Positions 10,001 to 29,161 of a stretch of 29,590 nt of DNA are shown here, in pieces (the stretch's first letter is position 1; every line of letters begins with the position of its first letter). The translations under genes were made by a program, and so were the position numbers. Under the pieces are notes generated by a model. It saw only the letters and a program-made list of their open reading frames with translations, had not been told where the DNA came from and searched no databases. The DNA comes from a virus. The stretch spans positions 1 through 29,590 of the IMG/VR virus record IMGVR_UViG_3300030328_003522. One strand, given 5' to 3'.

Positions 10001-11800
10001 AGTAGAAGAAGTCATTCTTGCTGAACCATAAGTATAATAAGGTTCCTGTTTTACATTAGCAGCAAAACTTCCTATACCTTCAACAGCTGTATCACCCAAT
10101 TCTGGACCACTATAAAGTTGCTTAACATCTTCCATTCCATAAGAAGTTACTGCAGTGGCAATTCTATTTAAAGTAAGTGGTTTACCTTCAGCATTTGTTG
10201 CAGCAGTTTCAAATATAATTGGTTCTTGAACTAAAAATTCTCCTTTTTTCTCATAAACAACCATTGAAGTGCTATTACTAACAGCAGTCATTACATATCC
10301 AGTAGCACCACTATATTTTCCCTTCACATAAGCTGGAATACTAATATTTGAAGCTTCATTTAAAGTAATATGCGAAGTAAGTTGAACATCATAAAGAGAA
10401 ATATCCCACTCATTTGTATCACCATTCGATGTTGAATAAGAACCTGATTCTAATACGTGATCATAAACCCTAGCAACACCAATCTCTTTACCAGCCATTT
10501 TAAATGGAGATACCTGAGACCCCATTGTATCTCTTAAACTGACAATATAAGTATTACCTATTCCAATTACAGGATGACCTTTAACCTTATTAAGTCTTAA
10601 ACTTTTTCCAGTTTTATATGCAACACCTTGAGATTCTAATAATTTAGTTGTTCTTGGTTTAGGGGCATTTAAAAAAGTTGGAGAAATCGTCTCAATTTCA
10701 TATCCTTTAACAAATGCTTTACCAGGCCCAACTTGATATACAGCAAGATCATCAGATGCTAAAGCTCCACCTTCAGTATATGTTCCCTCTTCATATATAC
10801 CACCATTTCCAAGACCATTATTTAATGAATTCTTTAAACTAACATCAAAAGGTTTGATAGTATAATCGCCAGATTCTGCATATGTTCTACGAGCTAATTC
10901 ATCAGCTATAAAATTGTAACTTGTATTTTGCTTTTGAGATTTTAATTTTCCATTTTGAATAACTGCTAATTCAACGAAATTAGAATCATTAAAATCATCT
11001 AATGGTTTAGCATATAAGGTAGCTGTGATCTTAAGGCGATCTGCACCTGGAGCAGCATAATTGTTAAATCCTTTTGAGTTATCAGCAAGTGATGGATCTT
11101 CATCAGCATTAATAATATCTTCTTCAATTCTTAAACCAATTCTTGCACTAGGTTTATTGTCATACTGATCCAATATAATTGTTTCATCTTCAACATTAAC
11201 AAAATTACCTCTTATAAAATAAACACCATTTGAAATTGAAAATGATGACGCAGTAGAAGTCGCATTATTTGCTACACAAGAAGCAAAAGATTCTCCAGAA
11301 GGAATAAATGCATTATTCTGTTCTCCTGAAACAATATCACTATCAGCAGTTAAAAGTTCACCATCATCAAAAACTTTAATAGCACTATCTTCAACACCAG
11401 AAGACATGTATGAAACGTAAATGGTAAGATTACCTCTCTCAGATGATTCTGATTCAAGAACCTTATCAATAATTGCAGTTACACCAGTTGTCAATCCAAT
11501 TATTTTTCTACCTACTAATTGATCAATATAATAATTGACTGGAACTCCTAAATGTGTATTATTTAATTCAACAGCATAATAATTTGGAGCATATGCAGTA
11601 TTTCCTGGAATTACCTTTGCACCTTCTTTAAAAAAGTGTTGACCAAACTTTTCTATCTGATTCTGAAGAATTGACTGCAGACCAGTTAATTCTCTAGCTT
11701 GAACAGGATAACCTGGTTTAAAGAGAACTTTATGATAACCTTGTTTTGGATCAAAATCATCAAAATAAGGTGATACGTTTAAATTAGTTTGCTGGGCCAT
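4049..11800 (-). CDS. Giant DUF4815-family baseplate/fibre structural protein (2,583 aa)
   Basis: The N-terminus NVSPYFDDFDPKQGYHKVLF and following QARELTGLQSILQNQIEKFG are hallmarks of the DUF4815 proteins of marine phages, virion proteins of unknown exact position. Further family landmarks are visible. A probable coiled-coil helix RMKDIKDLEDRIKNLEYYTS lies near residues 1148-1168. A Thr/Trp-rich stretch occurs around 1340-1430, followed by MRSRNIKFD and FAFFDGVNVTNYCTPKL (about 1448-1485). YDPLAQSFQV appears near 1738, then the PYLGSLFKSQNASTWEPSQW region, and a conserved C-terminus ends YVPRVSDLRVLTLA. Inserted modules include GxGY repeats (about 1977-2065) and a GNEIIKYTG...RG unit (about 2157-2235). 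It lies between gp8 and the neck genes, where T4 has 9-10-11-12-wac, so it may replace some of those functions. The start is six bases after the gp8 stop, with no clear ribosome site. A fibre or peripheral baseplate role is inferred. Confidence 0.88.
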   Translation of the reverse strand: MAQQTNLNVSPYFDDFDPKQGYHKVLFKPGYPVQARELTGLQSILQNQIEKFGQHFFKEGAKVIPGNTAYAPNYYAVELNNTHLGVPVNYYIDQLVGRKIIGLTTGVTAIIDKVLESESSERGNLTIYVSYMSSGVEDSAIKVFDDGELLTADSDIVSGEQNNAFIPSGESFASCVANNATSTASSFSISNGVYFIRGNFVNVEDETIILDQYDNKPSARIGLRIEEDIINADEDPSLADNSKGFNNYAAPGADRLKITATLYAKPLDDFNDSNFVELAVIQNGKLKSQKQNTSYNFIADELARRTYAESGDYTIKPFDVSLKNSLNNGLGNGGIYEEGTYTEGGALASDDLAVYQVGPGKAFVKGYEIETISPTFLNAPKPRTTKLLESQGVAYKTGKSLRLNKVKGHPVIGIGNTYIVSLRDTMGSQVSPFKMAGKEIGVARVYDHVLESGSYSTSNGDTNEWDISLYDVQLTSHITLNEASNISIPAYVKGKYSGATGYVMTAVSNSTSMVVYEKKGEFLVQEPIIFETAATNAEGKPLTLNRIATAVTSYGMEDVKQLYSGPELGDTAVEGIGSFAANVKQEPYYTYGSARMTSSTGSGAVSISTITSEDPLFPGNLKIGNILSFGGLGNNEQSYVGVTSIHTGHSQVIVTGIATVTGVVEGALYKGTAGTNLDVSNLKLVQTPLETSEETALYTLMPKSFIADVDLTDATLTIRKEYSVNITLNGNTGSGQLSSPITLTDNKTFLPFDEERYALVGADGNTIALTDNMFQFSSGNTVLQIQSLGAAQSGCTLITTQTKAKPAAKIKRKNRVNAITVTASNTPQSGTGSTSLNDGLVYGSYPLGTRVQDKFISLNYGDVCAIHAVFESNNAAIPSAPTMVLTALNGPSAKTEDVIIGEMIVGADSGARAIVAEYKTDTKISFILKNTTPFTEGEIVNFKESSVQGIIRTLDNTSRNISSNYKFTTGQRPTFYDYSFITRKDNARPPTKSLKVYFANGYYESTDEGDITTKNSYDTWDYSNDIPYLDGERVTDMIDIRPKVSNYSVTENSRSPFEFFGRSFTGEGNSAANILASDESIITNFKHYVGRIDRIFLDKTGRFQVQYGDPSEKAEVPIAIDDAIEVASCDLKPYLFNVKNANLKFLKHKRYRMKDIKDLEDRIKNLEYYTSLSLLESETANMFVPDSDGMNQYKSGFFVDNFTSLDPQETSVPIKNSVDPNHKEVRPQHYTTSIDLMVGPVDNVDATTDVAFSAAEGSNIRKQSDIVTLDYEEVEWLSQQFATRTESVTPFLVSFWQASLEISPTSDTWVDTARIEAKIIKTEGNFAGVMAQAQAEWGVDPQTGLSPIHWNSWETTWTGTDFQDRTESRSSSIQATTEEIIKAGWINGGDGPNLSEYTTTTWTTTETDTVRDTWKTGTSKRSGVRKIVTEQWDNESLGDKVVSRDVVTIMRSRNIKFDVTKCKPLTQMFAFFDGVNVTNYCTPKLMEITMESGTFQVGETVIGTMPGVGIQPEGTDQPFIKFRVAQANHRDGPYNAPTDFFNKNPYISQVGATGLETFLGTPGVVQVASASGDSTKMPSVYSATTTILNVDCKSLADQPQGDWFGYAHSGMTLRGQSSNAQAKISNMRLISDLGANLIGSFYIPNPNTGNHPKFETGVKSLTLIDNNTNDKDNSDTFGDANYSATGTLETVQESIISTRNASLETKHHNEEKPAREFSGSAVIDSHANTEITDSNTEAVWYDPLAQSFQVTEKGGVFITSCDIYFKTKDDMDIPMTFQIRTMKGGFPTQKILPFSEIVVPPEKINLSADGSVATNIKFKAPVYLEGSGTEYSIALASWSTKYSVFISRIGESDILTDEFISQQPYLGSLFKSQNASTWEPSQWEDLKFKIYRADFESSGTLEIYNPILTEGNGQVARLQPNSLNINSRQIRVGIGTSLADTALTFGNVVQQGAVSDGTHTYGAASNATGNYISNAGQATGALGIVNAGLGYTPASGSYSFTGVGLTNITGNGESLTATVAITDGAVTSATVTSSSSGYQVGDILGISTIGNGVAGRNARLSIVGLGKTDELILDNVQGTFALNGLLTYTHPVSGLTTTLNTKGYGGLGSCYAQSINTVDDGLHMSLDHRNHGMHHEQNRVTLSDVASDVTATRLSIPYNTNSSGSISVESSSDFETFEGIGVGATNPGLLKIGNEIIKYTGAGSGSISGITRGTDRNNYLKGAPVVKYEVGGVSLARINKTHLMSEVTDRDPNPITFDSYTLKLDQTGNTSGANPVYAIDRSSATSGSFPVLHFNESKSTGGYDIHATQNIPFQIISPQIQNTTVPGTNVTGVMRTVSASNLGDGMGQGTDIPFLDQGYQAIALNKSNYLDSPRMIASRINETNSTTIKNFAGDRSFGMTLTLETIDSHITPVIDLERMSAIFVSNRVDNPIKNYKTDGRVNDLFEDPHACQYVSKEMGLSNSASSIKIILNGHQNSFTDIRAFYAISNTANFDPIFVPFPGYKNLDNNGKVISLAESDGRSDSKVPFSDPSGFKANQLLYKEYTFTADTLPVFKHYRIKFVLTSNSQTYVPRVSDLRVLTLA

Positions 11801-13389: not shown

Positions 13390-13397
13390 TATTTAGA
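13390..13397 (-). promoter_or_regulatory. Candidate late-type promoter box (TCTAAATA) for gp8
   Basis: The minus strand reads TCTAAATA from 13397 to 13390, overlapping the TAA stop of the giant gp7-like gene, followed by an A-rich tract. It ends 26 bases before the gp8 ATG, allowing a 20-base leader that contains AGG. It is one base off T4 TATAAATA. This would give gp8 and later genes a transcript independent of the 13-kb gene upstream. Confidence 0.4.
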
Positions 13398-16300
13398 CAA
13401 CATAATTTGTAGATTTCAAGGGGAACTTCCTCTTGACTTGTGGGCCAGTTTTAATTCCAGTAATACCATCGTTTGTATTGATACTATATGCTTGAACTTT
13501 CTGCCTATCTTTTAGTTGTAATCGACCCCAATTGTAATCACCATAGTATTCTTTATAAGTACCATCACCATAGTGTCCTTGACCTAGAGTAGAATATCCT
13601 ACTTGATTTTGTAGACCATTCCAACCTAATACTCTACTAAAGACCCTTACAGCATCTGTTGCAACATCAGAACCAAATCCAATAGTAGATATTCCAACAT
13701 GATGTGAAACTTCAAAGATATTATCCAGTGCAGTTGTTCCTACACCAACATAACTACCATCCATATTCAAAGATGTAACACCACTACCAAGGTTAGAATT
13801 ACTTATTATAAAGTAATATCCAGTTTGAACTCCACTCTTACTAATTGGATCTGGAGTAGTAATTAACGAATCTCTTAATGGAGAAAGTGGTGGAATCCAG
13901 AAATCAAATACAACTGCAGTTCCTATACCAGTTCCACCTGCAAAAACAGTTCCTGCACCAACAGCTGCTCCATTTGCATCAGAAATATTTGAACATATAC
14001 CAACACCAGTAAGAATACCAAAATCTCCTTGATATAGATCAATGCTATTTTCTTCTCTCACATATGTTGGGGGAGCAATTAATACTTGAGGAGGTCTTCC
14101 ATGTGTATATGCATATCCAGCATTAACAAGAGTAATTGATGTAACAACACCAGCAGTAATTGATGCAGTTGCAGTTGAAATAGCAGTGGTTCCAATACCA
14201 GCAAGAGAAGAAGATGGAGTAACTCCATATCCTTGTCTACCATCCACAGGGGCCTGAATAGTGACCGTAGGAGCAGTCTCATATCCCCTACCACCCGTTG
14301 ATATTGCTACAGATGTTAGATTACTCTCAGCACCAACAATTGCTGTTGCTGCAGCACCTGCAAGGTATTCGTAACTACTACTTGCATCAACTATCTGAAT
14401 ATCTTTCTGGAAATTTCTATCAACTGGGTTTTCATTCTCAGGGTCAAATTGTGGTTTACAATTATCAATCCAAATAGTAGTTGATCCCACACCAACAGAT
14501 TGAATTAAATATGCTGTTGGGAATAGATTTGGTTCATATAAAGGACGATCCTTACGAACAATTCTACCATCAATCCACTTATCTTCAAGTTGTCTAGACC
14601 ACTTAACTGGTCTTAATTCGGTAGTATCATCACCTAAACCAACACCATAATATGCGTTAGTATCAACTTGGTCGGACGATTTAACCTCAGAAACAGTTCT
14701 ATCATCTTCTAAGAAATATCTGGTATTGTAATATGGATCAAATCCAACTTGTAAATCATCACCCATCTTAACAGTTTCTATAATATCTCTATCTTTTACG
14801 TCTTCACCACCAGTTCCTCTGTAGAAGAATAAGTTCATAACATCACCTGCATTAGGTGCTTCAGTTAATGTTATTGTTCCACCACCATTGAATGTAAATC
14901 CTTCTCCAGGAACCTGAAGAACATCATTAATCGTAAGAATGATAGTTTGATTTATAACAATATTTGAACCTGTTCTTCCTTGAATAGCATATGCTTCACC
15001 AGCCTTTGTAAGTGGGAATGCTTTTCTTGCTCCATCAAATAGATCTGAGAAGTCATCAAGTCTCTCTAATTCACCAACAGTCCACATATTGAATTCATCA
15101 TGATGAACTCTCTCTAAAGTTAATCTAAATTCATTCTGAGGACCATCTCCATCCCAAGTCTTTGCTGTAGGAATTCCTACTGTTGATCCAGCACCAGCAC
15201 GAAGATCATTTGGTATTGTTAAAACATGACCAGCACCATAACCAGATCCAGTATTTGTTATTTCAAAATCAATAATACTACCAGCAGCACCAACTACAAC
15301 ATTAGCCCTTGCTCCTGTTCCACCAACACCTGGAGAAGATGAATGATACCAAAGAGGGATATTTTCATATGGTAATGGTTTATCAATTATTGCATTGAAT
15401 GTTGAAGCACCATATCCTAAATTATTTCCAACTGATATTGGGTTCTGAGTTCCAATACCTGGAATTGGATCAGTATATGTAATAGCAATACTTACAATAC
15501 TACCATTAACAACTGATGCTGTTCCAATATATTGAATACTAGGTGTTCCTGTAGAAGATAATGCAACACCAACTTTAATTTCTGTTGCTATACCAACATA
15601 TGCACTATCAAGAGCTGTGACAGCAGCACCAGTTTGAGAAATTGGGCCAGGGAATACTCTATAACCAGAACCAGTATTACCGATACTTATGTTAGTAATT
15701 ACACCAACATTGTTAAAGGTTATTGTTGCACCAGCACCAACTAATGGTTGATAACTATTACCTTCAGTCGATCCAACAGAAACAATGATACCACCAACAG
15801 GAATAGTAGCATTATTTGGATCATATGTAACAGAAGCTGCCGTTCCAGTAAAGGTTATTGATGAAATGCCAGAAAATTCAGTTAAAGTATAATCATCAAT
15901 TTCACCAGCACCTTGTAGAATACCGTTGATCATCACTATACCCAATTGAGTAGCAATACCAGTAACATTTTGTTTGTCAACCTTTAAGGTAAATGGACTG
16001 TCTACATTACCATCTCGACCATTAAACTGGTGAGAAATATCATCAAGAACATAATTTGTATTATAAGCATCAATACTTCCACCCTTAATACCAGAACGAT
16101 TAAATATTCTTCCACTAAAACTTGAGGATGTTGTAATACCAACCCAATCTCTTTCGCTAGGTCTTGAGGTAGAATTACCAACAGTAGGTTCTCCACCAAA
16201 AGGAGCCACTGAGAAATTAATCGTGCTATCTACAATATTATAGTTACCACTAAGTTTTTCTATGACTGCATATTTGCTATGATCTGTACGACCAGTTCCT

Positions 16301-19300
16301 AACCAATTACGATGAACTTTCATCTTATCAGTAGCACCATAACCAACATATACCACTTTCATCATTTCATTACCAACTTTTATATCATCTCCACTGTAGA
16401 ATGACGTTATACCACTAACAGTCATTATAACTTCACCTTTAGTAAAGTTTGCATTAAGAGATGTTGTAACACCCAGACCCACAACAGGAGATTGGATTAT
16501 ATTATCAATTGATATTAATCCTCTAGCATTTTGATTTTTACTAACGAAACTATGCGATGTTCCAACACCAACTGATGTCAAATCTAAAGGAACCGCAATT
16601 GATTTAAGTGCATCTCCTGCAGATCTTGCAAGTTTAATTACACTATCACTTATCTTAATAGCATAAACTGATGATGGAACATAAGTTATAGTTGCTCCAA
16701 TACCAGAAGTTCCAACATGAGCAAAGTGAGTTGCTGCAATTCCAATAGCATCTGTAGTTGCACCAACACCTGTAGTAGTGCATCCTATTATTGGTTGTTT
16801 AACACGATACTCAATTTCTTCTCCACTTACAAAGTAATGGTTTGGAATAGTAATGGTATTATTTGTAAGATCAACAATAGTGGAACTTGAACCATCAAAA
16901 TTCTTTTTAAATATTTCATTATCACTTTCTTTAATTGGGAATCCTGTTCTCTCAGCATAGAAAGTTCCTTCATAGACATCAAATCTACTCTTAATAGAAC
17001 CACTATTAAGTTCAATATCTCTTGGTTTACTGCCATCTTCTACAATCTTGACAGATTGCATAAATGTCTTAACTTCTACTGGAATATTAGCATTTGGAAC
17101 GAAATTTAATTCTGTTGTACAATCTCCTGAATGTCTTGTTGCATTAATTGTTCCAATTCCAGTTGTAGCTCCTGCACCTGTTAGAATATTACCATATTCC
17201 GTCATGAATACTCGATCATCATCATCGACCATCATAACTTCAGCAAATTCATAAGTATCATTCAAAGTATCTTTAATTTGAACTAAACAATATGCTCCAT
17301 CAAAATCATTAGTGTAACTTGATATACCAACAGGATAAGGAGCAGCTCTACCAGGAATCGTAGTTGCTTGTGCAGATAAATTAGCATTTCTTAGAGATAC
17401 TGTACCAATTCCAGTAGCTGATTCTGAAGATATACCTATCGTTATAGAATTAATCCATGCAGTGGTAATACCAGCCTTAGGTGTATATCCAATCTCTACT
17501 GCAGCAGTAGTTCCAACACCAACAATATAAGGTCTAAATGTTCCTAATGGTTCTGCATTAAAATTATCACTTCTATTATGAATTGATAATTGACCATATG
17601 TTTCCCATGCAACTGTTGATCCCACACCAACATTTTGATGCATGACCAAACTCAATTCATTATATTCAACGGTTCCCTCACTTGTAGCAACAGAAACAAT
17701 AATCTTAGCAGATCTTGGGTTAAATAATTGATACTTAGAAGCAGCAGCACTTGCATAATTCCTAGATCCAGATGTTAATGCAACACCAGTAGTAGATGCA
17801 GTTCCTACTGTCAGAATTCTAACTTCCGCAGGAACTCCACTAATAGCACTATGTGCTGTTCCTGCTAATACATTAGAAGCACCAATACTAACCAATGCTC
17901 TTTGTGGATTAGATGATGATCCAATAGTAGTGCTACCAAGAGCAGTTAATGAGGTAGTAACACCAGTCTCATCCAAATTCATTGAAAGAGTTACTACGTT
18001 GTAATTATTATACTCACTCTTGGTTGGGTGGAATTGAAGAACAGCTTCTGTGCCATCAACGACACTATCCATCTGACCAAGATCCATGACTGTATCCACA
18101 GAACCATATTGGTTGATCATTGATTGACCACTAACTGGATCAAATAATGAATTAACCATCATTATTTGTCTTTCACCAGTAAATAGACTATCTTTTACAT
18201 ATACAATGAATCTATTTTCTTTGTTTTCGGAAATATCATATCTTCCAACCTCTGACCAAGGATTTGGTCTTGGATTGCTGTTGAATAGATGTGAAATATT
18301 ATCAATTGGAATTGCCCTATTTCCAATTGATTCAGCATAGTCAATTAGAATCCTATTTTTGAATGTAATTTCATCGGAGAAATTACCAGCAGCTGGAGAT
18401 CTATCTTTTAGATTTTCTGTTACAACATCAAAATTCTTAACTTCATGCAAACTTTCAATAGCTTGAATATTAATAATTCCACTAACAGTTCCTGCTGTAC
18501 CAACAACCATTGCATTCTTATTTTCAACTGGAAGAGTTGATTCAACCTGAAGATTACTGAATTTTCTAAATCCTGAAGTATGGGTTAATGTATTAACAAT
18601 ATCTTTCCATTTCTCAAAGAAAACTCTAGATTTAATTGCATATGAGAAACTATGATAATATTCATTATCATGAACTACTTGTAAACTATCACTTAAGAAA
18701 CCTGTATTATATTCCCATCCATTATCAACAATAGAATAGTAATTAAGTAAGAAATTGGTATCAAATGTAAGAACTATTTCAGAAACATTTCCTTTTGCAC
18801 CAGTTTCTAGAGATTCAATTAATTTACCAACTTCAAAATCACTTGCTGCTTCTACAGTCAACCATTTACTTGCTGGATCATATTCAAAAGCAACACCTTG
18901 AACAGGGCCAACACTCGTCTCTGACCTAAGAGTTTCATTTGCATTAAACTTGTTAGCAACTAGAACAGGGTCAAATTGTGGGAAATCTCTCTCTCGAACT
19001 AATATTCCAGAAGATAAAGCAGTATTATAATTACCTGGAACTTCACCAGATGGAAGATTTCCACCAAGACTATAAGTTACAACACCAACGTTACCTAAAT
19101 TTTGATGAGGTTCTTCTGTTATTTCAAAAGTGCGGTATTGATAATATTGAGAGTCATATCCTTTACCAGTAGACCCAACACCAACACTAACATTTTCTAC
19201 AAAAACGAAATCACCTTTTTCTAATGGAAACTCTTCTGTAAGACTGTATGCAATTTTTAATGTTGCTGCTACAGTATCAGTTGAAGAATCATAAACAAGA

Positions 19301-22300
19301 TTAGTAATTCTAATTCCATTTGGGTTTGCTACTGGAACAATAATTGGAGTTACACTGGATAAACCATAAGTATTTTCGATAATATCAACATATCCTGGTT
19401 CATCTGGTGTTTCAAGATTATATCTTAAATCAACATCTTCATCTTTCTTTCTAGTAACACCATCAAGAACAACTAATGAAGGTGGTTGATTATATCCTCT
19501 ACCATATGAAGTAATACCAATAGATTTAAGACCAGAAAGTGCATCAATCTTAATAACTTGTGGAAGTTTAGATTGAGGTCTTAATGTAAAATCTGAAGGA
19601 TAATCAAAACCAATATTTTCAATCGTTGCCTTTTCAATTTTTCCTATTGAAGTACTGGAAGCTTCCAAAATTGCACCAGTACCTGTGTTTGTGCTTACAG
19701 TTGAAATACCAGGTAATCTTGTATAACCTCTTCCCTTATCTGCAATAGCAACTTCTGCAACAGGGCCATAAGCACTCTTGGATGGTGTTTTATACTTTAT
19801 TTGAGTATCTGTAGAACTTTCATAACTAGCTTCTTCTGGATATCTATCAAGATTATATGTGAAAGTATTTTTAGAATTAGCAAGAATCTGATGTCTACCA
19901 GCATAGCGACTTTCTCTAATCGAAACTGAATTATTTCCTTCAATACCTTTATCCAAAACAAGTTCTTTATTTACATCTGGATTATCGTCTGAAGTAGTAG
20001 GAACTAGATTATAATAAAGAATCTTAGGTGTATTTTCATTATATGTTACTACCACCTTACCATCAATACCTACAGTACCACTTCTAGTGACATTGAAAGT
20101 AGTCTTTAGTTCATTAGATGTATATTCATGAATAAAATTAGAATCAGTATAAAGTTTAAAATCAAATGCAGGTAAAGCTTCACTAAGTGGCGTATATGAT
20201 AGAGAAGAATCTGATACATCAAAAGTTATGGTTCCATTTTTATAAAATTCTAATGCAGGATTAACAAGATTTAAAACTCCACTTCTAGCAGTTCCACTCG
20301 TATATGCATTAGTAATACCTACAAACTTTGGTCTCTTTTGTTTGGTTTGGAAACGACTACCACAAAGTTTAATCAAATCCTTAGTAAGAACATATACAAA
20401 ATACTCCTCATCATTTACCAATCCAGTAGCAGGAGAAGATGATGTATGAACAACTCTTTGACCAGTTTTCAATTCATGATTAACAATTTCAATTGAATCT
20501 TGTTGACCTGTTAATGATGAAGTTGTTGTAATACCAGTTGCAGTAAAGTCTAATGTTCTAGCAATAAGTTTTCTATTTGCTTTATTATACTTAATTGGAA
20601 CTGTAGTAGTAATACCAGCATCAATAGTAAGTTCTACAAGATCCTTATGTTTTAATCCATGTGTGCTAGCTACTGAAACTGTTACTAAATTCTTTTCTAT
20701 AGTTCCCTTTACAGTTCCATCATAATTTTTCCTTAAACTATGACGCTTACCAGTTCCTGGATTAATAAAATATACTAAACCTTGAGTTACATTAGTTGCT
20801 CCAACTCCTACAAAGACATCTTCAGGGGTTCTTGTAGCATCCGTAGGAGTAACAGAAGCTATACCAATCCTAACTGTTGATAATCCAATTAAATCATCAC
20901 TTAACTTGGCAACAAATAAAGGTACACCTTCAGCCAGATCTACTACTGGTGCAGTAAACGCAGCATTGGCTCGGTTAGTCGATATTGATATAGATTCGCC
21001 ACCATTTCTATTGTAAATAACAGAATCACCAGTTTTTAATTTATGACCAGGTAAGTAAATCGATCTAGCAGGAATAAAGATTCTTGATATACCAGCACCT
21101 GGATTTTCAAAAGTAATAGTTGTTCCAATACCAACACCAGCAGTAGTTCCAACACCAACAGACTCTAAAGGATAGAAATAATATTCATGATCTACCGCAC
21201 CATTAAATGATGTATCAAATCCAGAACTAATTGTAAATTTTCTAGGTCTCTCTTCTACAGGAGTCTTAATAGTATGTGCAACACCAACAGTGCCGTTTTG
21301 TGCTCTTAAAATTCTTATTCTACTAGAAGCAGGATCTACATTTAAAACTTTAACTTCTTCACCATAACCAACATGATCTTTATTAGTAGTAGTTCCAGCA
21401 CCAATTCTTAAAATATCATTTTCTCTTATTCCTATTCCATTAAGAGCTTGATAAGGTTGTGGTAATGTTCCTTGAACAAACATGTAAGTAACAAAACCAG
21501 TGACTGCAGTTGCTCCAATTCCTTGAGATACAAGTAATTTTTGAGAACTAATTCCAATAGTATAACCTTTTTGAGCAATGGTAGTTGCAGTAGTTGTTAA
21601 TCCAGAAACGTAAATATTATCAAGATTTTGGAAATCTAATGGATCAGTAGCAATACCGATAAATGTCTTACGTGCTTGACCTGGATAAAATTCAATTCCA
21701 GTAACTTTAGTATTTGTTACTGCAATAGTTCCAATTCCTGGCCCATCAACTTTAGAAACTTTTGCTACTGCTTGGAAATTATCAGCTACTTTTTCCTCAA
21801 AAACAAGTTGATCACCTGTTCCATAATTAGATCCACCAGTAACAACTCCAACCTTTTCAACATTTCCCTCTCTAGCATATACAACAGTACCTTCTTGAGT
21901 TATATACTTATAAGATTGTTTTAGATAATCATAATAACTACTATCTTGAAGTAATTCATAAGGTTCAGTATTTCTAACCCAAAGAGTGTCATTTAAATCA
22001 ATTAAATCTTGATTACTTTTGGATAATGTATTAAACTCATTTGGTTGAGCCCAATAATTATCACCAATTAGATATGGGAATGCAGGTCTCTTATAATTTT
22101 GGAATGGATCAGCAGCACCATGTGCTAAATTTCCATCAGTTAAATCAGTATCAAAAGTTGCAAAATAAGCATATGTTCCATTAGGGAATTCTGGTGTTAT
22201 TCCATATCTTCCATTATTTTCATCAAGATACTTTTCATCAGTATTACTATCCCAAGTAAAGTCTTCTACAAAGAATTCTGACGGGAAAACACTTAAAGGA

Positions 22301-25300
22301 GGTCTATTTGTTTTATAATCAATAGAATATCCAGATCTTATTTGAGTTATATTACCGCCAGTACTCTTTTCATAAGCATAAGGGCCGTAAATTGGAAGAC
22401 CATCATATGACCATCCAATAATAGGTGAGTGTCTTGTTTTATTTTCTTCTGTTTGACCATTTAATAAAGTTAAATCTCTAGCACCATATATCGCAGTTCC
22501 TTCTGCATCATTTTGATAAACAATCTTTCTTAGTGTTCTAGGGCAATATGCATGAGAAATTTGCAATCCTCCACTAAGTCTAGTAGGTTTATCGATAAAA
22601 GTATCAGAAGCATCTATGTTAGAATAATTCTTTTGAACCTCATTAACTTGCCATGTAGTCATATTGACAAGGAAGTTTGCAAATTCTCCAGCTGCTTCTA
22701 CAGTAAGTGATGTTGTTGAAGCACCATATCCAACACCACCCCTAATAATCTTAACTGATCTAACTTGACCACCGATAATTTCAGGAACTAATAATGCACC
22801 AGTTCCAACACCTGCAACAGAAATCGCAGGAGGTGTATTGTAAGATACTCCTCTATTATTAATAGCAACGTCAATTATTTTACCATCTGCAACAACTGGA
22901 AGTAATTCGCAACTCTTTCCACTATACAGATCAACTCGTGGTTGTCTATTAAAATTCAAAATTTCAGAAGCACCATATCCAACACCACCAGCAGTTAAAT
23001 TAATAGATGTAACTTCACCTCGAACAAGAGGTTGAGGAATACATTCAAAGGTATTTCCTTCAATAGAATCAATACCAACAATACCTTCAACTTTAACCTC
23101 AATTGGTGGATAATTGAAATTATGAGTTGCTACACCACTAGATCTAAAGTTCTCATACTGTTTAGTCTTATAATAGAAATCCTTTACAGTTGTTCCAATA
23201 CCCACTCCAGCTAATTTGAAAGTATTTTCATCTATTACATTAATATAATATTGATTGCCACTTGTAAGACCTTCAATAGATGTTCCATCTGGATCTTTAG
23301 TATAGATAACAATCTCACCTTCTTTATAATCATGATTTAGAATTGTAACTCTATCAAGTGCAGTGTTGACACCCACTGGATTACAAGTTTTATGCTTATT
23401 TTCATATCCATCACCAGTCTCCAACAGATTAATAGCACCCACTTGTGCCTTTCCGTTTAATGAATGCATTAAATGGTTTCCTGTTCCAAAATTAGTGAAA
23501 TTTATTGTTCCAACACCAGCAACTGCTTCATCTAAATTTCTATGTAATCTTATAGTTTTATTTTCTACCCAAGGACTACCTTTATCGGTAGCAACACCAG
23601 ACCAACCAGTTCCTGGGTTTTTTGTAACTGCATAATAAGTTGCACCAGTATCTAAACCTGCTAATGCTGTTCCACCTTGAGTATCATATCTAACTCTCTC
23701 AAAATTACGGAATTTATGATAAGTTAAGAATCCTACGTTCCATTCTCCAGTAACACCAGATCCAACTACACTTGTACTAATAGCACTTCTACCATCACCA
23801 TATGTGCTAATTGCAATAACACCAGAACCAGAACCAGCATTGAAAACTACAGAATGGGGAACTGTTACCAATTTACATTCTGCTTTAGCTCCGTCTCCAT
23901 TACCACCGTTAATACTTACAGTAGGAGTCTCAACATAATCAAATCCAGGTTCTAAAACTCTAATTTCTTGGAATTTTCCTCTTGTTGCAACAAAACCAGT
24001 AGCACCAGTTCCAACACCATCGTTAATTGCTAATTCTGGTGGATTAATAACATCATAATATCTACCACCACCAACACAATCAATTGATTTAATATCTCCA
24101 TAATAAACCAAATCTTTTGATTTATAACTTAAAACTTCAGTTCCATTAATTAAAAGACCATTATAACCAATTTTTGTTGGATATCTTTTTCCATCATAAA
24201 CAGGCATATCAAACTCTCTAAAGAGTTTTTGTGGTTGAATTATTTTTTTATGGAAATCATACTTCTCAAATGTGTTATTTGTTATAGTTGTTTGAACAGT
24301 AGATTCAGATATCTTTTGATAATTTCCATCATATAAGTTAGATAAAGATTTTGCTAATTTAATATCATTATGGTTAATTCTTTCAACAAAATATAAACCT
24401 TCACCGAAAAGGAAACTCATTACAGTTCCATTTGCTGCTAATTGTGGTGTATAGTAAATCGAATCACCACTAAAGAAGTTATGGTCATGAGTTCCTGTTG
24501 TTATTCCAATAATAGTATCACCACCATTATAAGTTCCAGAAAGACTGATCTTCTGAGTGCTTGGATTTAACTTAGCACTATCTGATGATGGTAATGAGTT
24601 ACATGCAACTAAATTCTTTAACTTGGATAATGTATGAGCATATCCAACTTCTCTCATATAAACATTTTGAACATTTGCAGTGAAATTATTCAAATGTTGG
24701 TGATTATCATCAACACCAGTTCCGTCACAATTTGGTTTAGTAAGAATATTCTTTATACTAACACAAGCAGAAAGACTACTTATAGCAGCACCTCTTATTC
24801 TTAATATCTTATTACTAATAACATCAGTTACTGAATATGTTCCATCTAATGTTGTATTATTTGTCTGTATTGTTACTAAATCACCAAATCTAATTCTATG
24901 GAAATCCTCTAAAGTTACTTCATAGGTATTGTTTGAAGCATCTTGTACAGTAATAGTATCAATGTCATATCTTGTTGATATGTTAGAAATCCAATTTTTT
25001 GATTTAAAGTCATCAACATGTGCAATTTTTCCTAATGACTTTAACTTAATTTTTCCACCTTTTTTCTGATAGAATGTATTTGGAAGCTCTACATCATTTA
25101 ATACACCAGTAATTCTAACCCTTATACCATCTGTAGTAAGACCAACAGCAGTAGAATCTGCTTTTCCTAAAGCATACGCATATGTATTTTGCTTAATTAA
25201 TGCAGCATCTTTAATTGTTGTTGTAATTCCAACGACACCAACAAATTGAGTAGTTGTTGTTGATGAATATGTTGCTACTCCAACAGTTCCATTCTTATAC

Positions 25301-26412
25301 TGGAAAGTAAGAGATCCCTTATCTGGGAAACCAATTGTAGAGTCAACATCAATATAAGTTTGTGCTGTTCCGACTGTTTCAACGGTAACTTCTCCAACAG
25401 CTCTTGTGTTTGCATGAACCCTAAAATCACCGTATAATAGCGAGCTAGAACCTCCTGTACCGAACGAATCATCGACACTTACCTTGTAGTAGGTATCGGT
25501 TAAAAGACCTACTCTGATCCTTTCTACCATTGATATAGGAGCATATGCTTTACCTATATTCTCAAACGCATCTTGGAAGAGAGTTTTGTTCTCCAAATCC
25601 ATAGGATCACCTTGGATTGGTTCTACAATAATATCACGAGTCTTTTTATAATTTGCATCCGAAGGTGCAATTACGTTATCTGCAGGTCTTTCAATAGAAA
25701 CATCTTCATTAAATAAAGATCTGAATAATAACTTAAATGATTCATCAGTTCCTCTTGAACTGTAAAAATCTTTTGAATGTCGAATGAATTGTGGTTCATT
25801 TAACGACACATTTAATTCTTTTTTAAATCCAGGTAAAAATTGTTCTTTTGATTTTCTTAAAAACTCTCTTAAGAATAAAACACTTAAATTTTCAACTTGA
25901 CCACCAGAAGTTCCTATTCCAACCTTATGAGTTGCTGCTTTTGAATCAGAGAATATAAACTCCTCAGGCTCGTTTGGATTACTAAATGATGTAATACCAC
26001 TAAACCCACGAATACACCCCTCAAAGGTGCCATATGTGCGGGAATGAACAGTGCTTCCAACACCAGATATAACAGAATCAGATATAGTTCCTAAACCAGT
26101 ATATGTAACAATCTCATCATCTAACTTCAATAATCCATAACTATCAGGATATCCTAATGTGCTATTAACAATTATTTGGCTATCAAATTGAGTAACATCA
26201 GTAATAAGTGTTGTAAAACCTACAAGAGTTCCAGATTTGTTTAATTGAATATAAGAATCTAAATTATTGACAATATCAATTGGAGCACCTTGATATTCTT
26301 GTGCTTGATAATATTGACTCAAGAATTCACCCATTAAAGGATTATCATCCCTAATATGAGTAGGAAGTTGTTCTTTTACAACTTTATTAATCTGAACTCT
26401 TTTATCTGGCAT
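13393..26412 (-). CDS. gp7: Giant modular gp7-like baseplate wedge protein with YHYH domain (4,339 aa)
   Basis: gp7 in T4 is the long wedge subunit that joins gp6 in the core bundle. Residues about 1-60 and 175-245 here match the C-terminal core of T4 gp7 (1,032 residues): NPLMGEFLSQYYQAQEYQGA (T4 NFEAFCEAYIQYLSDGYGT) and DFYSSRGTDESFKLLF at 215-230 (T4 DFYSTKGIEASYKFLF). Its place between gp6 and gp8 agrees. A beta module interrupts the core at 62-143. The remaining 4,000 residues are a beta-rich array. It includes about six NHxLxxGDxVxY modules, at least seven GxGY repeats and a YHYH domain at about 1300-1430 (GWSYDGLPIYGP; NGRYGITPEFPNG). Conserved marine-phage segments follow at about 2650-2810 (SHLFNSNPRPNPW) and 3780-3880 (ILTINDVLQVPGEGF). 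The C-terminus has YYGDYNWGRL. There is no signal peptide or membrane segment. The reading frame is unbroken over 13 kb. Start is four bases after gp6. The gp7 assignment is by motif and synteny. Confidence 0.82.
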   Translation of the reverse strand: MPDKRVQINKVVKEQLPTHIRDDNPLMGEFLSQYYQAQEYQGAPIDIVNNLDSYIQLNKSGTLVGFTTLITDVTQFDSQIIVNSTLGYPDSYGLLKLDDEIVTYTGLGTISDSVISGVGSTVHSRTYGTFEGCIRGFSGITSFSNPNEPEEFIFSDSKAATHKVGIGTSGGQVENLSVLFLREFLRKSKEQFLPGFKKELNVSLNEPQFIRHSKDFYSSRGTDESFKLLFRSLFNEDVSIERPADNVIAPSDANYKKTRDIIVEPIQGDPMDLENKTLFQDAFENIGKAYAPISMVERIRVGLLTDTYYKVSVDDSFGTGGSSSLLYGDFRVHANTRAVGEVTVETVGTAQTYIDVDSTIGFPDKGSLTFQYKNGTVGVATYSSTTTTQFVGVVGITTTIKDAALIKQNTYAYALGKADSTAVGLTTDGIRVRITGVLNDVELPNTFYQKKGGKIKLKSLGKIAHVDDFKSKNWISNISTRYDIDTITVQDASNNTYEVTLEDFHRIRFGDLVTIQTNNTTLDGTYSVTDVISNKILRIRGAAISSLSACVSIKNILTKPNCDGTGVDDNHQHLNNFTANVQNVYMREVGYAHTLSKLKNLVACNSLPSSDSAKLNPSTQKISLSGTYNGGDTIIGITTGTHDHNFFSGDSIYYTPQLAANGTVMSFLFGEGLYFVERINHNDIKLAKSLSNLYDGNYQKISESTVQTTITNNTFEKYDFHKKIIQPQKLFREFDMPVYDGKRYPTKIGYNGLLINGTEVLSYKSKDLVYYGDIKSIDCVGGGRYYDVINPPELAINDGVGTGATGFVATRGKFQEIRVLEPGFDYVETPTVSINGGNGDGAKAECKLVTVPHSVVFNAGSGSGVIAISTYGDGRSAISTSVVGSGVTGEWNVGFLTYHKFRNFERVRYDTQGGTALAGLDTGATYYAVTKNPGTGWSGVATDKGSPWVENKTIRLHRNLDEAVAGVGTINFTNFGTGNHLMHSLNGKAQVGAINLLETGDGYENKHKTCNPVGVNTALDRVTILNHDYKEGEIVIYTKDPDGTSIEGLTSGNQYYINVIDENTFKLAGVGIGTTVKDFYYKTKQYENFRSSGVATHNFNYPPIEVKVEGIVGIDSIEGNTFECIPQPLVRGEVTSINLTAGGVGYGASEILNFNRQPRVDLYSGKSCELLPVVADGKIIDVAINNRGVSYNTPPAISVAGVGTGALLVPEIIGGQVRSVKIIRGGVGYGASTTSLTVEAAGEFANFLVNMTTWQVNEVQKNYSNIDASDTFIDKPTRLSGGLQISHAYCPRTLRKIVYQNDAEGTAIYGARDLTLLNGQTEENKTRHSPIIGWSYDGLPIYGPYAYEKSTGGNITQIRSGYSIDYKTNRPPLSVFPSEFFVEDFTWDSNTDEKYLDENNGRYGITPEFPNGTYAYFATFDTDLTDGNLAHGAADPFQNYKRPAFPYLIGDNYWAQPNEFNTLSKSNQDLIDLNDTLWVRNTEPYELLQDSSYYDYLKQSYKYITQEGTVVYAREGNVEKVGVVTGGSNYGTGDQLVFEEKVADNFQAVAKVSKVDGPGIGTIAVTNTKVTGIEFYPGQARKTFIGIATDPLDFQNLDNIYVSGLTTTATTIAQKGYTIGISSQKLLVSQGIGATAVTGFVTYMFVQGTLPQPYQALNGIGIRENDILRIGAGTTTNKDHVGYGEEVKVLNVDPASSRIRILRAQNGTVGVAHTIKTPVEERPRKFTISSGFDTSFNGAVDHEYYFYPLESVGVGTTAGVGIGTTITFENPGAGISRIFIPARSIYLPGHKLKTGDSVIYNRNGGESISISTNRANAAFTAPVVDLAEGVPLFVAKLSDDLIGLSTVRIGIASVTPTDATRTPEDVFVGVGATNVTQGLVYFINPGTGKRHSLRKNYDGTVKGTIEKNLVTVSVASTHGLKHKDLVELTIDAGITTTVPIKYNKANRKLIARTLDFTATGITTTSSLTGQQDSIEIVNHELKTGQRVVHTSSSPATGLVNDEEYFVYVLTKDLIKLCGSRFQTKQKRPKFVGITNAYTSGTARSGVLNLVNPALEFYKNGTITFDVSDSSLSYTPLSEALPAFDFKLYTDSNFIHEYTSNELKTTFNVTRSGTVGIDGKVVVTYNENTPKILYYNLVPTTSDDNPDVNKELVLDKGIEGNNSVSIRESRYAGRHQILANSKNTFTYNLDRYPEEASYESSTDTQIKYKTPSKSAYGPVAEVAIADKGRGYTRLPGISTVSTNTGTGAILEASSTSIGKIEKATIENIGFDYPSDFTLRPQSKLPQVIKIDALSGLKSIGITSYGRGYNQPPSLVVLDGVTRKKDEDVDLRYNLETPDEPGYVDIIENTYGLSSVTPIIVPVANPNGIRITNLVYDSSTDTVAATLKIAYSLTEEFPLEKGDFVFVENVSVGVGSTGKGYDSQYYQYRTFEITEEPHQNLGNVGVVTYSLGGNLPSGEVPGNYNTALSSGILVRERDFPQFDPVLVANKFNANETLRSETSVGPVQGVAFEYDPASKWLTVEAASDFEVGKLIESLETGAKGNVSEIVLTFDTNFLLNYYSIVDNGWEYNTGFLSDSLQVVHDNEYYHSFSYAIKSRVFFEKWKDIVNTLTHTSGFRKFSNLQVESTLPVENKNAMVVGTAGTVSGIINIQAIESLHEVKNFDVVTENLKDRSPAAGNFSDEITFKNRILIDYAESIGNRAIPIDNISHLFNSNPRPNPWSEVGRYDISENKENRFIVYVKDSLFTGERQIMMVNSLFDPVSGQSMINQYGSVDTVMDLGQMDSVVDGTEAVLQFHPTKSEYNNYNVVTLSMNLDETGVTTSLTALGSTTIGSSSNPQRALVSIGASNVLAGTAHSAISGVPAEVRILTVGTASTTGVALTSGSRNYASAAASKYQLFNPRSAKIIVSVATSEGTVEYNELSLVMHQNVGVGSTVAWETYGQLSIHNRSDNFNAEPLGTFRPYIVGVGTTAAVEIGYTPKAGITTAWINSITIGISSESATGIGTVSLRNANLSAQATTIPGRAAPYPVGISSYTNDFDGAYCLVQIKDTLNDTYEFAEVMMVDDDDRVFMTEYGNILTGAGATTGIGTINATRHSGDCTTELNFVPNANIPVEVKTFMQSVKIVEDGSKPRDIELNSGSIKSRFDVYEGTFYAERTGFPIKESDNEIFKKNFDGSSSTIVDLTNNTITIPNHYFVSGEEIEYRVKQPIIGCTTTGVGATTDAIGIAATHFAHVGTSGIGATITYVPSSVYAIKISDSVIKLARSAGDALKSIAVPLDLTSVGVGTSHSFVSKNQNARGLISIDNIIQSPVVGLGVTTSLNANFTKGEVIMTVSGITSFYSGDDIKVGNEMMKVVYVGYGATDKMKVHRNWLGTGRTDHSKYAVIEKLSGNYNIVDSTINFSVAPFGGEPTVGNSTSRPSERDWVGITTSSSFSGRIFNRSGIKGGSIDAYNTNYVLDDISHQFNGRDGNVDSPFTLKVDKQNVTGIATQLGIVMINGILQGAGEIDDYTLTEFSGISSITFTGTAASVTYDPNNATIPVGGIIVSVGSTEGNSYQPLVGAGATITFNNVGVITNISIGNTGSGYRVFPGPISQTGAAVTALDSAYVGIATEIKVGVALSSTGTPSIQYIGTASVVNGSIVSIAITYTDPIPGIGTQNPISVGNNLGYGASTFNAIIDKPLPYENIPLWYHSSSPGVGGTGARANVVVGAAGSIIDFEITNTGSGYGAGHVLTIPNDLRAGAGSTVGIPTAKTWDGDGPQNEFRLTLERVHHDEFNMWTVGELERLDDFSDLFDGARKAFPLTKAGEAYAIQGRTGSNIVINQTIILTINDVLQVPGEGFTFNGGGTITLTEAPNAGDVMNLFFYRGTGGEDVKDRDIIETVKMGDDLQVGFDPYYNTRYFLEDDRTVSEVKSSDQVDTNAYYGVGLGDDTTELRPVKWSRQLEDKWIDGRIVRKDRPLYEPNLFPTAYLIQSVGVGSTTIWIDNCKPQFDPENENPVDRNFQKDIQIVDASSSYEYLAGAAATAIVGAESNLTSVAISTGGRGYETAPTVTIQAPVDGRQGYGVTPSSSLAGIGTTAISTATASITAGVVTSITLVNAGYAYTHGRPPQVLIAPPTYVREENSIDLYQGDFGILTGVGICSNISDANGAAVGAGTVFAGGTGIGTAVVFDFWIPPLSPLRDSLITTPDPISKSGVQTGYYFIISNSNLGSGVTSLNMDGSYVGVGTTALDNIFEVSHHVGISTIGFGSDVATDAVRVFSRVLGWNGLQNQVGYSTLGQGHYGDGTYKEYYGDYNWGRLQLKDRQKVQAYSINTNDGITGIKTGPQVKRKFPLKSTNYVV
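22130..22530 (-). other. YHYH-domain region encoded within the gp7-like gene
   Basis: Residues about 1295-1427 hold the two signatures of the YHYH domain family: GWSYDGLPIYGPYAY starting at residue 1333, and NGRYGITPEFPNGTYAYF near 1400. Between them lie RPPLSVFPSEFFVEDF and an acidic stretch. The domain is known from bacterial secreted and surface proteins and from marine phage structural proteins; its function is not established. Limits are approximate. Confidence 0.75.
25984..26229 (-). repeat. Inserted 'LxxxDEIVTYTG...CIRG' module in the gp7 core
   Basis: Residues about 62-143 of the gp7-like protein separate the two halves of the conserved gp7 core. They read NSTLGYPDSYGLLKLDDEI, then VTYTGLG and CIRGFSGITSF. 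A second copy follows near residues 345-400 (DSTIGFPDKGSLTF) and a third near 3317-3385 (VGNEMMKVVYVG; GRTDHSKY). Related units are in gp15 and the DUF4815 protein. Confidence 0.65.
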
Positions 26413-28345: not shown

Positions 28346-28747
28346 TTATCGTGATGGAAGCAAGGCAAATTCGACTTGAGAGGGTGGAACGTCTATTCCA
28401 ACAATTCTATAACTGATAATTACATCATAATTGTTAGAATCATAATTTGGGTTAACATAGACTTCAATAATTTCTACCCTTGGTTCATAATTTTGCAAAG
28501 AGTTCTCAATTTCTTCTTTTATCGATGCAGCAGTTAATTCACTAATATTTTCAAATAATATTTCACCCACATGAGACCCAAATTCAGGAGCAAAGACCTT
28601 TTCACCAGGAGTTGTCAGTATAATATTACGAACTGCTCTTGCAATGGCATTTTCATTCTTCAAAGCAATCAAGTCACCACTTAAGGGGTTAAACTTAAAT
28701 GATAAACTAAGATCTTTAAAGGATTTGCTGACTCTTTGAGCTGGCAT
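28346..28747 (-). CDS. gp25: gp25, baseplate wedge subunit / sheath initiator
   Basis: gp25 binds the gp6-gp7 core and nucleates tail-sheath polymerisation; it belongs to the GPW/gp25 family. The 133 residues match T4 gp25 (132) in length. The diagnostic EPR motif, which contacts the core bundle in T4, is at 88-90 (QNYEPRVEII). Other family marks are LKNENAIARAVRNIILTTPG at about 29-48 and PEFGSHVGEILFENI at 54-68. No Shine-Dalgarno sequence is visible before the ATG; the upstream leader is very AU-rich. A late-promoter box at 28773-28780 sits 25 bases upstream, so this gene probably heads the wedge operon 25-6-7-8. Confidence 0.95.
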   Translation of the reverse strand: MPAQRVSKSFKDLSLSFKFNPLSGDLIALKNENAIARAVRNIILTTPGEKVFAPEFGSHVGEILFENISELTAASIKEEIENSLQNYEPRVEIIEVYVNPNYDSNNYDVIISYRIVGIDVPPSQVEFALLPSR

Positions 28748-28772: not shown

Positions 28773-28780
28773 TATTTATT
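28773..28780 (-). promoter_or_regulatory. Candidate late promoter (AATAAATA) heading the baseplate operon
   Basis: The minus strand reads AATAAATA from 28780 to 28773, a full NATAAATA match. It lies in the short gap between the 53-residue gene and gp25 and ends 25 bases before the gp25 ATG, giving a predicted leader near 20 bases. It is the best-placed late promoter in the window. Confidence 0.6.
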
Positions 28781-28785
28781 AAGAT

Positions 28786-28947
28786 TTATTTGTATTCAGA
28801 AATAACCTCATAACTTTCCACCTCATTAACCGTTTCTAAATCAAAAGGATCTGCTAAACGCTCAAAAAAGTCGCTAGAACTCTCAATATCACGTTTTTTC
28901 GGAGTCAATTTATCATTTGCAATCTCTCGAAGCATTTGTGATTCCAT
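28786..28947 (-). CDS. Small acidic protein of unknown function (53 aa)
   Basis: The ORF begins MESQMLREIANDKLTPKKRD and continues with FFERLADPFDLETVNEVE, ending EVISEYK then TAA. I do not recognise it. It is acidic, largely predicted helical at its N-terminus, and has no cysteine or membrane segment. The case for a real gene is strong. AGGAGG lies six bases before the ATG, the best ribosome site seen in the window, and the gene sits alone between a terminator (28967-29006) and the gp25 promoter. The promoter-like TCTAAATA box at 28996-29003 could serve it. Expression at higher level than its neighbours is a reasonable inference; its role is unknown. Confidence 0.8.
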   Translation of the reverse strand: MESQMLREIANDKLTPKKRDIESSSDFFERLADPFDLETVNEVESYEVISEYK

Positions 28948-28953
28948 AGTTTT

Positions 28954-28959
28954 CCTCCT
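28954..28959 (-). promoter_or_regulatory. Strong Shine-Dalgarno site AGGAGG for the 53-residue gene
   Basis: The minus strand reads AAAGGAGG then AAAACT before the ATG at 28947, a near-perfect anti-16S match at optimal spacing. It fixes the start codon and contrasts with the weak or absent sites of gp25, gp6, the gp7-like gene and the DUF4815 gene. Confidence 0.85.
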
Positions 28960-28966
28960 TTGCATT

Positions 28967-29006
28967 AAAAAAGTGCCTAAAAGAACATTTGTTCTTATTT
29001 AGACAC
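28967..29006 (-). terminator. Intrinsic terminator after the 48-residue gene
   Basis: On the minus strand GTGTCTAAATAAGAAC (29006-28991) pairs with GTTCTTTTAGGCAC (28986-28973) around an AAAT loop, with one G-U pair and a two-base bulge. Six T residues (28972-28967) follow. This is a 14-pair hairpin with a U tract, the expected form of a rho-independent terminator. It would end the upstream small-gene transcript before the baseplate operon. Confidence 0.85.
28996..29003 (-). promoter_or_regulatory. Promoter-like box (TCTAAATA) inside the terminator stem
   Basis: The 5' arm of the terminator contains TCTAAATA (29003-28996), the same sequence as the box before gp8. By T4 late-promoter spacing, transcription would start near 28990, in the hairpin loop. 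Such an RNA would lack the 5' arm and escape termination, and would carry the AGGAGG site for the 53-residue gene. Confidence 0.35.
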
Positions 29007-29014
29007 CAAATATG

Positions 29015-29161
29015 TTATTTTCCTTGACCTCTGTATCTCTTTCGTGCTTTATTACGAGAGGTTGCGGAAAGTTTGCTATGTTTTCCCATTCCTTGTCGAG
29101 ATTTTTTGGGTATCGACTCAACATAAGTGCCACCCAATAGACCTGTTTTTACTTTTGCCAT
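29015..29161 (-). CDS. Small very basic conserved phage protein (48 aa)
   Basis: The ORF encodes MAKVKTGLLGGTYVESIPKK, then SRQGMGKH and a C-terminal SRNKARKRYRGQGK. Lysine and arginine dominate, with almost no acidic residues. From memory, nearly identical short proteins with the TGLLGG...PKK.RQG...RYRGQG pattern are widespread in marine T4-like cyanophages, always without a function. Charge and size suggest binding to nucleic acid or to an acidic partner; this is inference. No ribosome site is evident, and it starts three bases after the stop of the membrane-protein gene, so it may be translated by coupling. The terminator at 28967-29006 follows. Confidence 0.85.
   Translation of the reverse strand: MAKVKTGLLGGTYVESIPKKSRQGMGKHSKLSATSRNKARKRYRGQGK

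Follow-up and report, generated by a model that had tools for sequence, protein, structure and literature searches.

Genes and features at the locus

The window, that is the whole stretch of DNA analysed here, is a 29.6-kb IMG/VR record from a T4-like phage that belongs to an uncultured, Kyanoviridae-like group of the ocean. Its gp25 shares at best 58.6% identity with that of a cultured phage (SynMITS9220M01), and among the genomes fetched Kyanoviridae are the nearest cultured relatives. Besides the genes listed in Table 1 the minus strand encodes gp6 and two very long baseplate-region genes. These two ORFs past gp6 span 13393–26412 (4339 aa) and 4049–11800 (2583 aa); the counterpart of the 4339-aa ORF in relatives is annotated as baseplate wedge initiator. 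Between the 48-aa basic gene and the 53-aa gene lies the element described in the following.

An in-frame ATG at 28965 leads to a program-called ORF of 59 aa, whereas the start of the 53-codon ORF is at 28947. We prefer the 53-residue start, which the initial annotation of this DNA had also used, since locus L003 lacks the upstream ATG and contains the 53-codon ORF only, and since most relatives have 53 codons too.

Table 1. Features around the element in the window.
Feature	Position	Strand	Basis
gp25 baseplate wedge gene, first of the structural gene run	28346–28747	−	PF04965, E 9e-15; phrog_261
Putative second late box ATAAATA, directly before gp25	28773–28779	−	sequence; most loci of the gp25 search show NATAAATA here
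53-aa gene (MLREI..D.LTPKK protein)	28786–28947	−	weak PHROG matches only
AGGAGG ribosome site, outside the hairpin	28954–28959	−	sequence
U-tract TTTTTT following the stem, with its first U (28972) paired to the stem base	28967–28972	−	sequence; T-run in 19 aligned elements
Predicted terminator hairpin: 5' arm 29007–28991, loop 28990–28987, 3' arm 28986–28972	28972–29007	−	fold, distal-stem covariation, model R1
Predicted late start (+1), first loop base	28990	−	C at −12 (Aeh1 convention, PMC1524935, source seen in part)
Putative late-promoter box CTAAATA in the 5' arm	28996–29002	−	enrichment before ORFs; invariant in 19/19 aligned elements
48-aa basic gene upstream of the terminator, closing the upstream unit in the window	29015–29161	−	PHROG match (phrog_516)

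A predicted terminator hairpin with a putative promoter box in its 5' arm

On the minus strand, positions 29007 to 28967 read GGTGTCTAAATAAGAACAAATGTTCTTTTAGGCACTTTTTT. The hairpin formed by this sequence has a folding energy of −15.3 kcal/mol (z −5.0), and none of 200 shuffled sequences was equally stable. The opposite strand folds at −9.7 kcal/mol and has no U-tract after the fold. The stem consists of 15 pairs with one bulge and few G-C pairs. As expected for an intrinsic (Rho-independent) terminator, a stable stem is directly followed by a U-rich tract and is kept by compensatory change, the latter according to a permutation test and more weakly by columns. At least five U stand directly 3' of the stem in the aligned elements, which is the classic terminator layout; the T-run is kept in 19 aligned elements and interrupted in L024. 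A generic terminator scan did not list 29007–28967, because its rule is unsuited to a bulged stem.

The initial annotation had described, within 28948–29010, a promoter box inside the 5' arm of a terminator. This observation is confirmed by the position of CTAAATA, and the interval takes in the element together with its leader.

CTAAATA as a putative late-promoter box

In phage Aeh1 CTAAATA begins at −12, according to the available part of the report (PMC1524935), and the start in Table 1 was predicted accordingly from this spacing. We counted the heptamer and its variants in 34 stretches, comprising the window, contigs of its clade and two stretches from other phages (L400 and L401). A copy was regarded as lying before a gene when it was found 8–80 nt upstream of an ORF start on the coding strand. 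This was the case for 50 of 70 copies of CTAAATA, the 50 including the elements themselves, and for 46 of 99 copies of ATAAATA. TTAAATA (4/245) and GTAAATA (2/125) were rarely located there. The TAAATA core of T4-like late promoters is enriched before genes on the coding strand, and judged by this placement CTAAATA and ATAAATA are the late-promoter class of the clade. Five cultured cyanophages show the C/A class again, e.g. P-TIM68 with 17/28 and 28/43 copies; in T4 only 1 of 31 CTAAATA copies precedes an ORF start.

In the window itself CTAAATA occurs three times, compared to 9.9 ± 3.2 copies expected from shuffles, and all three copies are on the coding strand 20–30 nt upstream of an ORF start. 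The heptamer therefore appears to be avoided elsewhere and placed at gene starts. For S-PM2 a late promoter NATAAATA is on record (PMC2984593, as far as the source was available). The late box of gp25 is located about 220 nt downstream of the element, so that only the 53-aa gene would, at most, depend on the element, which would offer an extra start for gp25. With Syn9 gp33 as query we obtained no match at E 0.01 in the clade contigs, which are partial.

Conservation of the element in relatives

A search with gp25, blind to the element, yielded 80 loci. The fused element, i.e. the box within the terminator arm, was present in all 32 distinct loci whose gp25 shares 66% identity or more, the window among them, and in none of 41 other distinct loci, 17 of which have gp25 at about 63% identity or less while 24 come from a search with the 53-aa protein. 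Left out of this count were duplicates sharing identical 100 nt upstream as well as 14 loci in which the upstream region or the 53-aa gene is missing or lies off the contig end (L011, L014, L016, L022, L028, L029, L044, L045, L061, L076, L079, L339, L352 and L365). L024, scored “no” by the T-run rule on account of its interrupted T-run, contains the element and was counted as fused by hand. In each of the 32 clade loci exactly one [CA]TAAATA is found between −160 and +30 of the 53-aa start, namely the copy in the arm.

GTGTCTAAATA is the same in all 19 aligned elements; 13 of these come from the gp25 search (including the window), and six were pattern-selected, with the conserved letters forming part of the selection. 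No change occurs in this set in loop AA, TTTAG, CAC or the larger part of the T-run either, whereas the distal stem varies. The distal arms covary: native arm pairs fold at a mean of −15.70 kcal/mol and permuted pairs at −13.21 kcal/mol, the native value being reached by 0 of 2000 permutations. Column-based covariation is weaker because the arm lengths differ, with 86.7% of cells paired versus 83.4% in shuffles (reached by 4 of 500), and the number of further pair types was reached by 119 of 500 shuffles. In the neighboring 53-aa gene third codon positions show 58% mean identity, and 64% at identical residues (44 sequences). One or two bases of the core are unpaired yet unchanged in 12 of 14 distinct hairpins, for which selection on the hairpin alone is an insufficient explanation. 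The covariation of the arms, the invariant unpaired core and the variable third codon positions next to it so argue that stem and 7-mer are both selected, the 7-mer being held for more than pairing.

The initial annotation had made its reading depend on relatives keeping the arm pairing together with the TAAATA core. Both are kept in the clade (32/32 loci). Outside the clade hairpins without the core do exist (L065, L088, L264, L289 and L292), and in L088, L264, L289 and L292 a separate TAAATA-type box is located downstream of the coreless hairpin. The fusion is thus not needed in general. Such terminators at the same place without the core in the 5' arm, together with gp25 having its own late box, could be taken to mean that the element is a terminator only and that CTAAATA is accidental in an AT-rich stem, with no RNA starting there. 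We consider this unlikely in view of core bases that do not vary even where unpaired, of a 7-mer that the window avoids other than in front of genes and that is enriched before ORFs, and of the 53-aa gene, which would then have no nearby late box in any of the 32 clade loci.

Position at a probable border of early and late units

Sigma-70 consensus promoters (TTGAC-N16-19-TA[TA]AAT) were found 33 times in 78,391 nt upstream but only once in 224,201 nt downstream of the element, counted over 16 stretches of which some are near-identical to each other. Each of the 14 stretches that extend 1.2 kb or more upstream has at least one such promoter there. The nearest one is mostly located at about −1.05 to −1.8 kb, and the window ends short of that point. 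The element keeps its place beside the 53-aa gene, and the gene preceding it is of at least five kinds (the 48-aa basic gene, a gene of 232–239 aa belonging to phrog_3704, and genes of 57, 59 and 86–91 aa). This pattern fits a putative border between early and late units with gene turnover on the early side.

The 232–239-aa gene replaces the 48-aa gene right before the element in the L004–L025 group and in L394. Its PHROG is labelled ferredoxin and assigned to the auxiliary-metabolic category; no Pfam match was obtained for it. In cultured relatives CP12, purM, oxygenase or halogenase genes are located between the 48-aa-like gene and gp25. Furthermore, five contigs (L372, L373, L375, L387 and L391) share a conserved sigma-70 promoter of the TTGACAAATACTAAATAAACTGATAAAAT type with CTAAATA in its spacer, located about 1.1–1.5 kb upstream of the element before a gene of about 255 aa. 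In other contigs the spacer does not contain CTAAATA. This is possibly an overlapping early and late promoter.

The location also bears on whether the hairpin terminates at all. The element might be a late promoter only, the hairpin and U run being non-terminating and the stem serving, say, as RNA-end protection or processing site; the bulged 15-pair stem has few G-C pairs, termination itself is predicted, and the T-run is interrupted in L024. However, the site is the end of the sigma-70 promoter zone, at least five U follow right after the stem in the classic layout, the arms show compensatory change, and relatives have terminators that differ in sequence at this site. We regard a promoter without termination as improbable.

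Comparison with known systems

The closest precedent is given by T4 e, soc, 49 and I-TevI (in addition segB, and mobE of Aeh1), where, as is predicted here, the late promoter lies within the 5' part of a hairpin. For T4 e, I-TevI and endonucleases the location of the late promoter in the DNA of the 5' hairpin strand is stated explicitly in the available parts of two reviews (Uzan & Miller 2010, PMC3014915; T4 mobile-element review, PMC2988022). In genes of the e/I-TevI type the hairpin arises in early read-through RNA; late transcripts are missing the 5' part of it (same sources and parts). The hairpin of the T4 genes hides the ribosome site and blocks translation, as far as these sources were available, whereas the hairpin described here has a U-tract behind it and does not cover the ribosome site. 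We thus find one feature of the T4 class, the late promoter in the 5' strand (CTAAATA, 29002–28996), and not the other, a sequestered Shine-Dalgarno sequence or AUG: AGGAGG (28959–28954) and the AUG at 28947 are outside 29007–28972. Since the hairpin does not include the ribosome site, it would act on transcription. Translational control as in T4 e, soc and I-TevI, with ribosomes blocked on read-through RNA and late RNA free, would likewise place the late promoter in the 5' hairpin strand (PMC3014915 and PMC2988022, in part), but is very improbable given that AGGAGG and AUG of the 53-aa gene (28959–28945) are not contained in 29007–28972.

T4-type phages and cyanophages also have a terminator followed by a separate late promoter, and place this pair of signals between upstream and late units in the order seen here; unlike here, their box stands clear of the hairpin. 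In T4 and five cyanophages, 11 of 105 terminators have [AC]TAAATA 3–28 nt downstream and none has it in the 5' arm. A single one, in Syn9, carries GTAAATA in the 5' arm, which belongs to the non-enriched class. With T4-like late promoters (TATAAATA; NATAAATA in S-PM2; CTAAATA in Aeh1; PMC2984593 and PMC1524935, both in part) the box shares the TAAATA core, the spacing to +1 and structural genes downstream, and it differs in the first position, which is C or A here, and in its overlap with a terminator stem. In the open-access literature, to which the search was confined (subscription papers being outside its scope), we found no natural case of a late promoter located in the arm of an intrinsic terminator, and the sole match of the phrase was a synthetic-circuit paper, seen in part. 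Late initiation inside a hairpin that frees the late RNA is established in T4 for translation; the termination version would be new here.

Origin and spread

We compared 149 distinct regions following the 48-aa gene, some of them from pattern-selected loci. By the rule used, 82 have no terminator, 17 contain a terminator and a separate TAAATA-type box downstream, and 20 contain the fused element. L264 and L289 carry GTGTCTCGAAAGAGGCAC-T6, the stem base of the window, and a CTAAATA or ATAAATA shortly after it, and L292 has a different stem with CTAAATA downstream. In L260 the GTGTCTCGAAAGAGGCAC-T6 stem is located elsewhere in the contig, with CTAAATA right after it. In L260 and L264 the distance between CTAAATA and the T-run is at most 5 nt. 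Some relatives present terminator and box in tandem, and the fused clade has no second box. The simplest story suggested by these arrangements is a fusion of a tandem terminator and late promoter, although convergence may be responsible instead.

Model R1 found one strong copy in each of 17 element-bearing stretches, weak antisense matches aside, plus one in L400. It detected no other copy at E ≤ 1 in the 34 stretches (572,976 bases) and none in 1,183,150 bases of cultured and related phages. With a single strong copy per stretch we rejected the idea of a design repeated within the genome. A tight pattern search in IMG/VR retrieved 58 stretches. In the loci collected for comparison 78 of 80 matches precede the 53-aa gene or gp25; L118 ends ahead of the 53-aa gene. 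With a loose pattern, the matches listed were mostly due to chance.

Several candidates were discarded. L124 lies in an unrelated phage in which a palindromic AT-rich terminator yields the same letters. In L400, from the same record, an unrelated 85-kb virus, this palindromic terminator (GTGTCTAAATACTTGTTATTTAGGCAC-T6, 2249–2289) has CTAAATA on both strands and looks like a chance match. TTAAATA in a 5' arm of L072 was treated as chance, since this variant is not enriched before genes. A search of Rfam gave three matches, all far below gathering scores.

A probable one-way insulator combined with a late promoter

The element is best explained, with good probability, as a late promoter built into a one-way insulator. 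We infer termination, start site, factor and timing from the sequence. Polymerase from sigma-70 (early/middle) promoters about 1–1.8 kb upstream would transcribe the small genes, and this RNA would form the full hairpin with its U-tract and stop short of the 53-aa gene and of the baseplate genes. In the late phase a phage late sigma factor of the gp55 type would direct initiation at CTAAATA in the arm, with the RNA starting at about 28990 in the loop. Such a late RNA would contain the 3' arm only, form no hairpin and pass the U-tract, and it would carry the 53-aa gene with its AGGAGG leader and perhaps gp25 and gp6 as well. With the promoter inside the 5' arm the stop should act only on RNA coming from upstream.

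The initial annotation had proposed that RNA started at the box escapes the hairpin. Folding supports this: with the late 5' end before the U-tract the residual fold amounts to 0 to −4.4 kcal/mol versus −14.5 to −19.0 kcal/mol for the full hairpin, the late RNA is unable to rebuild the hairpin in 14 of 14 distinct hairpins, and the predicted +1 is in the loop. In the predicted late RNA of the window (28941–28990, minus strand) weak pairing of the released 3' arm with the AGGAGG leader is possible (−6.3 kcal/mol, z −0.5). The further proposal of a switch insulating early from late transcription holds in part. Sigma-70 promoters are rich upstream and not downstream, as insulation would have it. 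The term “switch” is too strong, because early polymerase still crosses the late promoter before stopping; one-way insulator plus promoter describes the element better. Overall the earlier interpretation is supported at the level of sequence.

With somewhat less confidence, though still as the likelier case, we propose that the element is a phase-gated terminator of about 40 bp that works without an antiterminator, that it would stop RNA made by the host-type holoenzyme and exempt late RNA, and that it arose by tandem fusion and became fixed at the border. The exemption would come about through initiation within the 5' arm, which removes half of the hairpin.

The element would extend the T4 idea of a hairpin formed by early RNA only from translation to termination. 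It would represent a compact, factor-free insulator and could mark the point where early and late units meet in uncultured marine phages. It would also provide a case of a terminator stem evolving under two constraints together, the pairing of its arms and a promoter box in the DNA.
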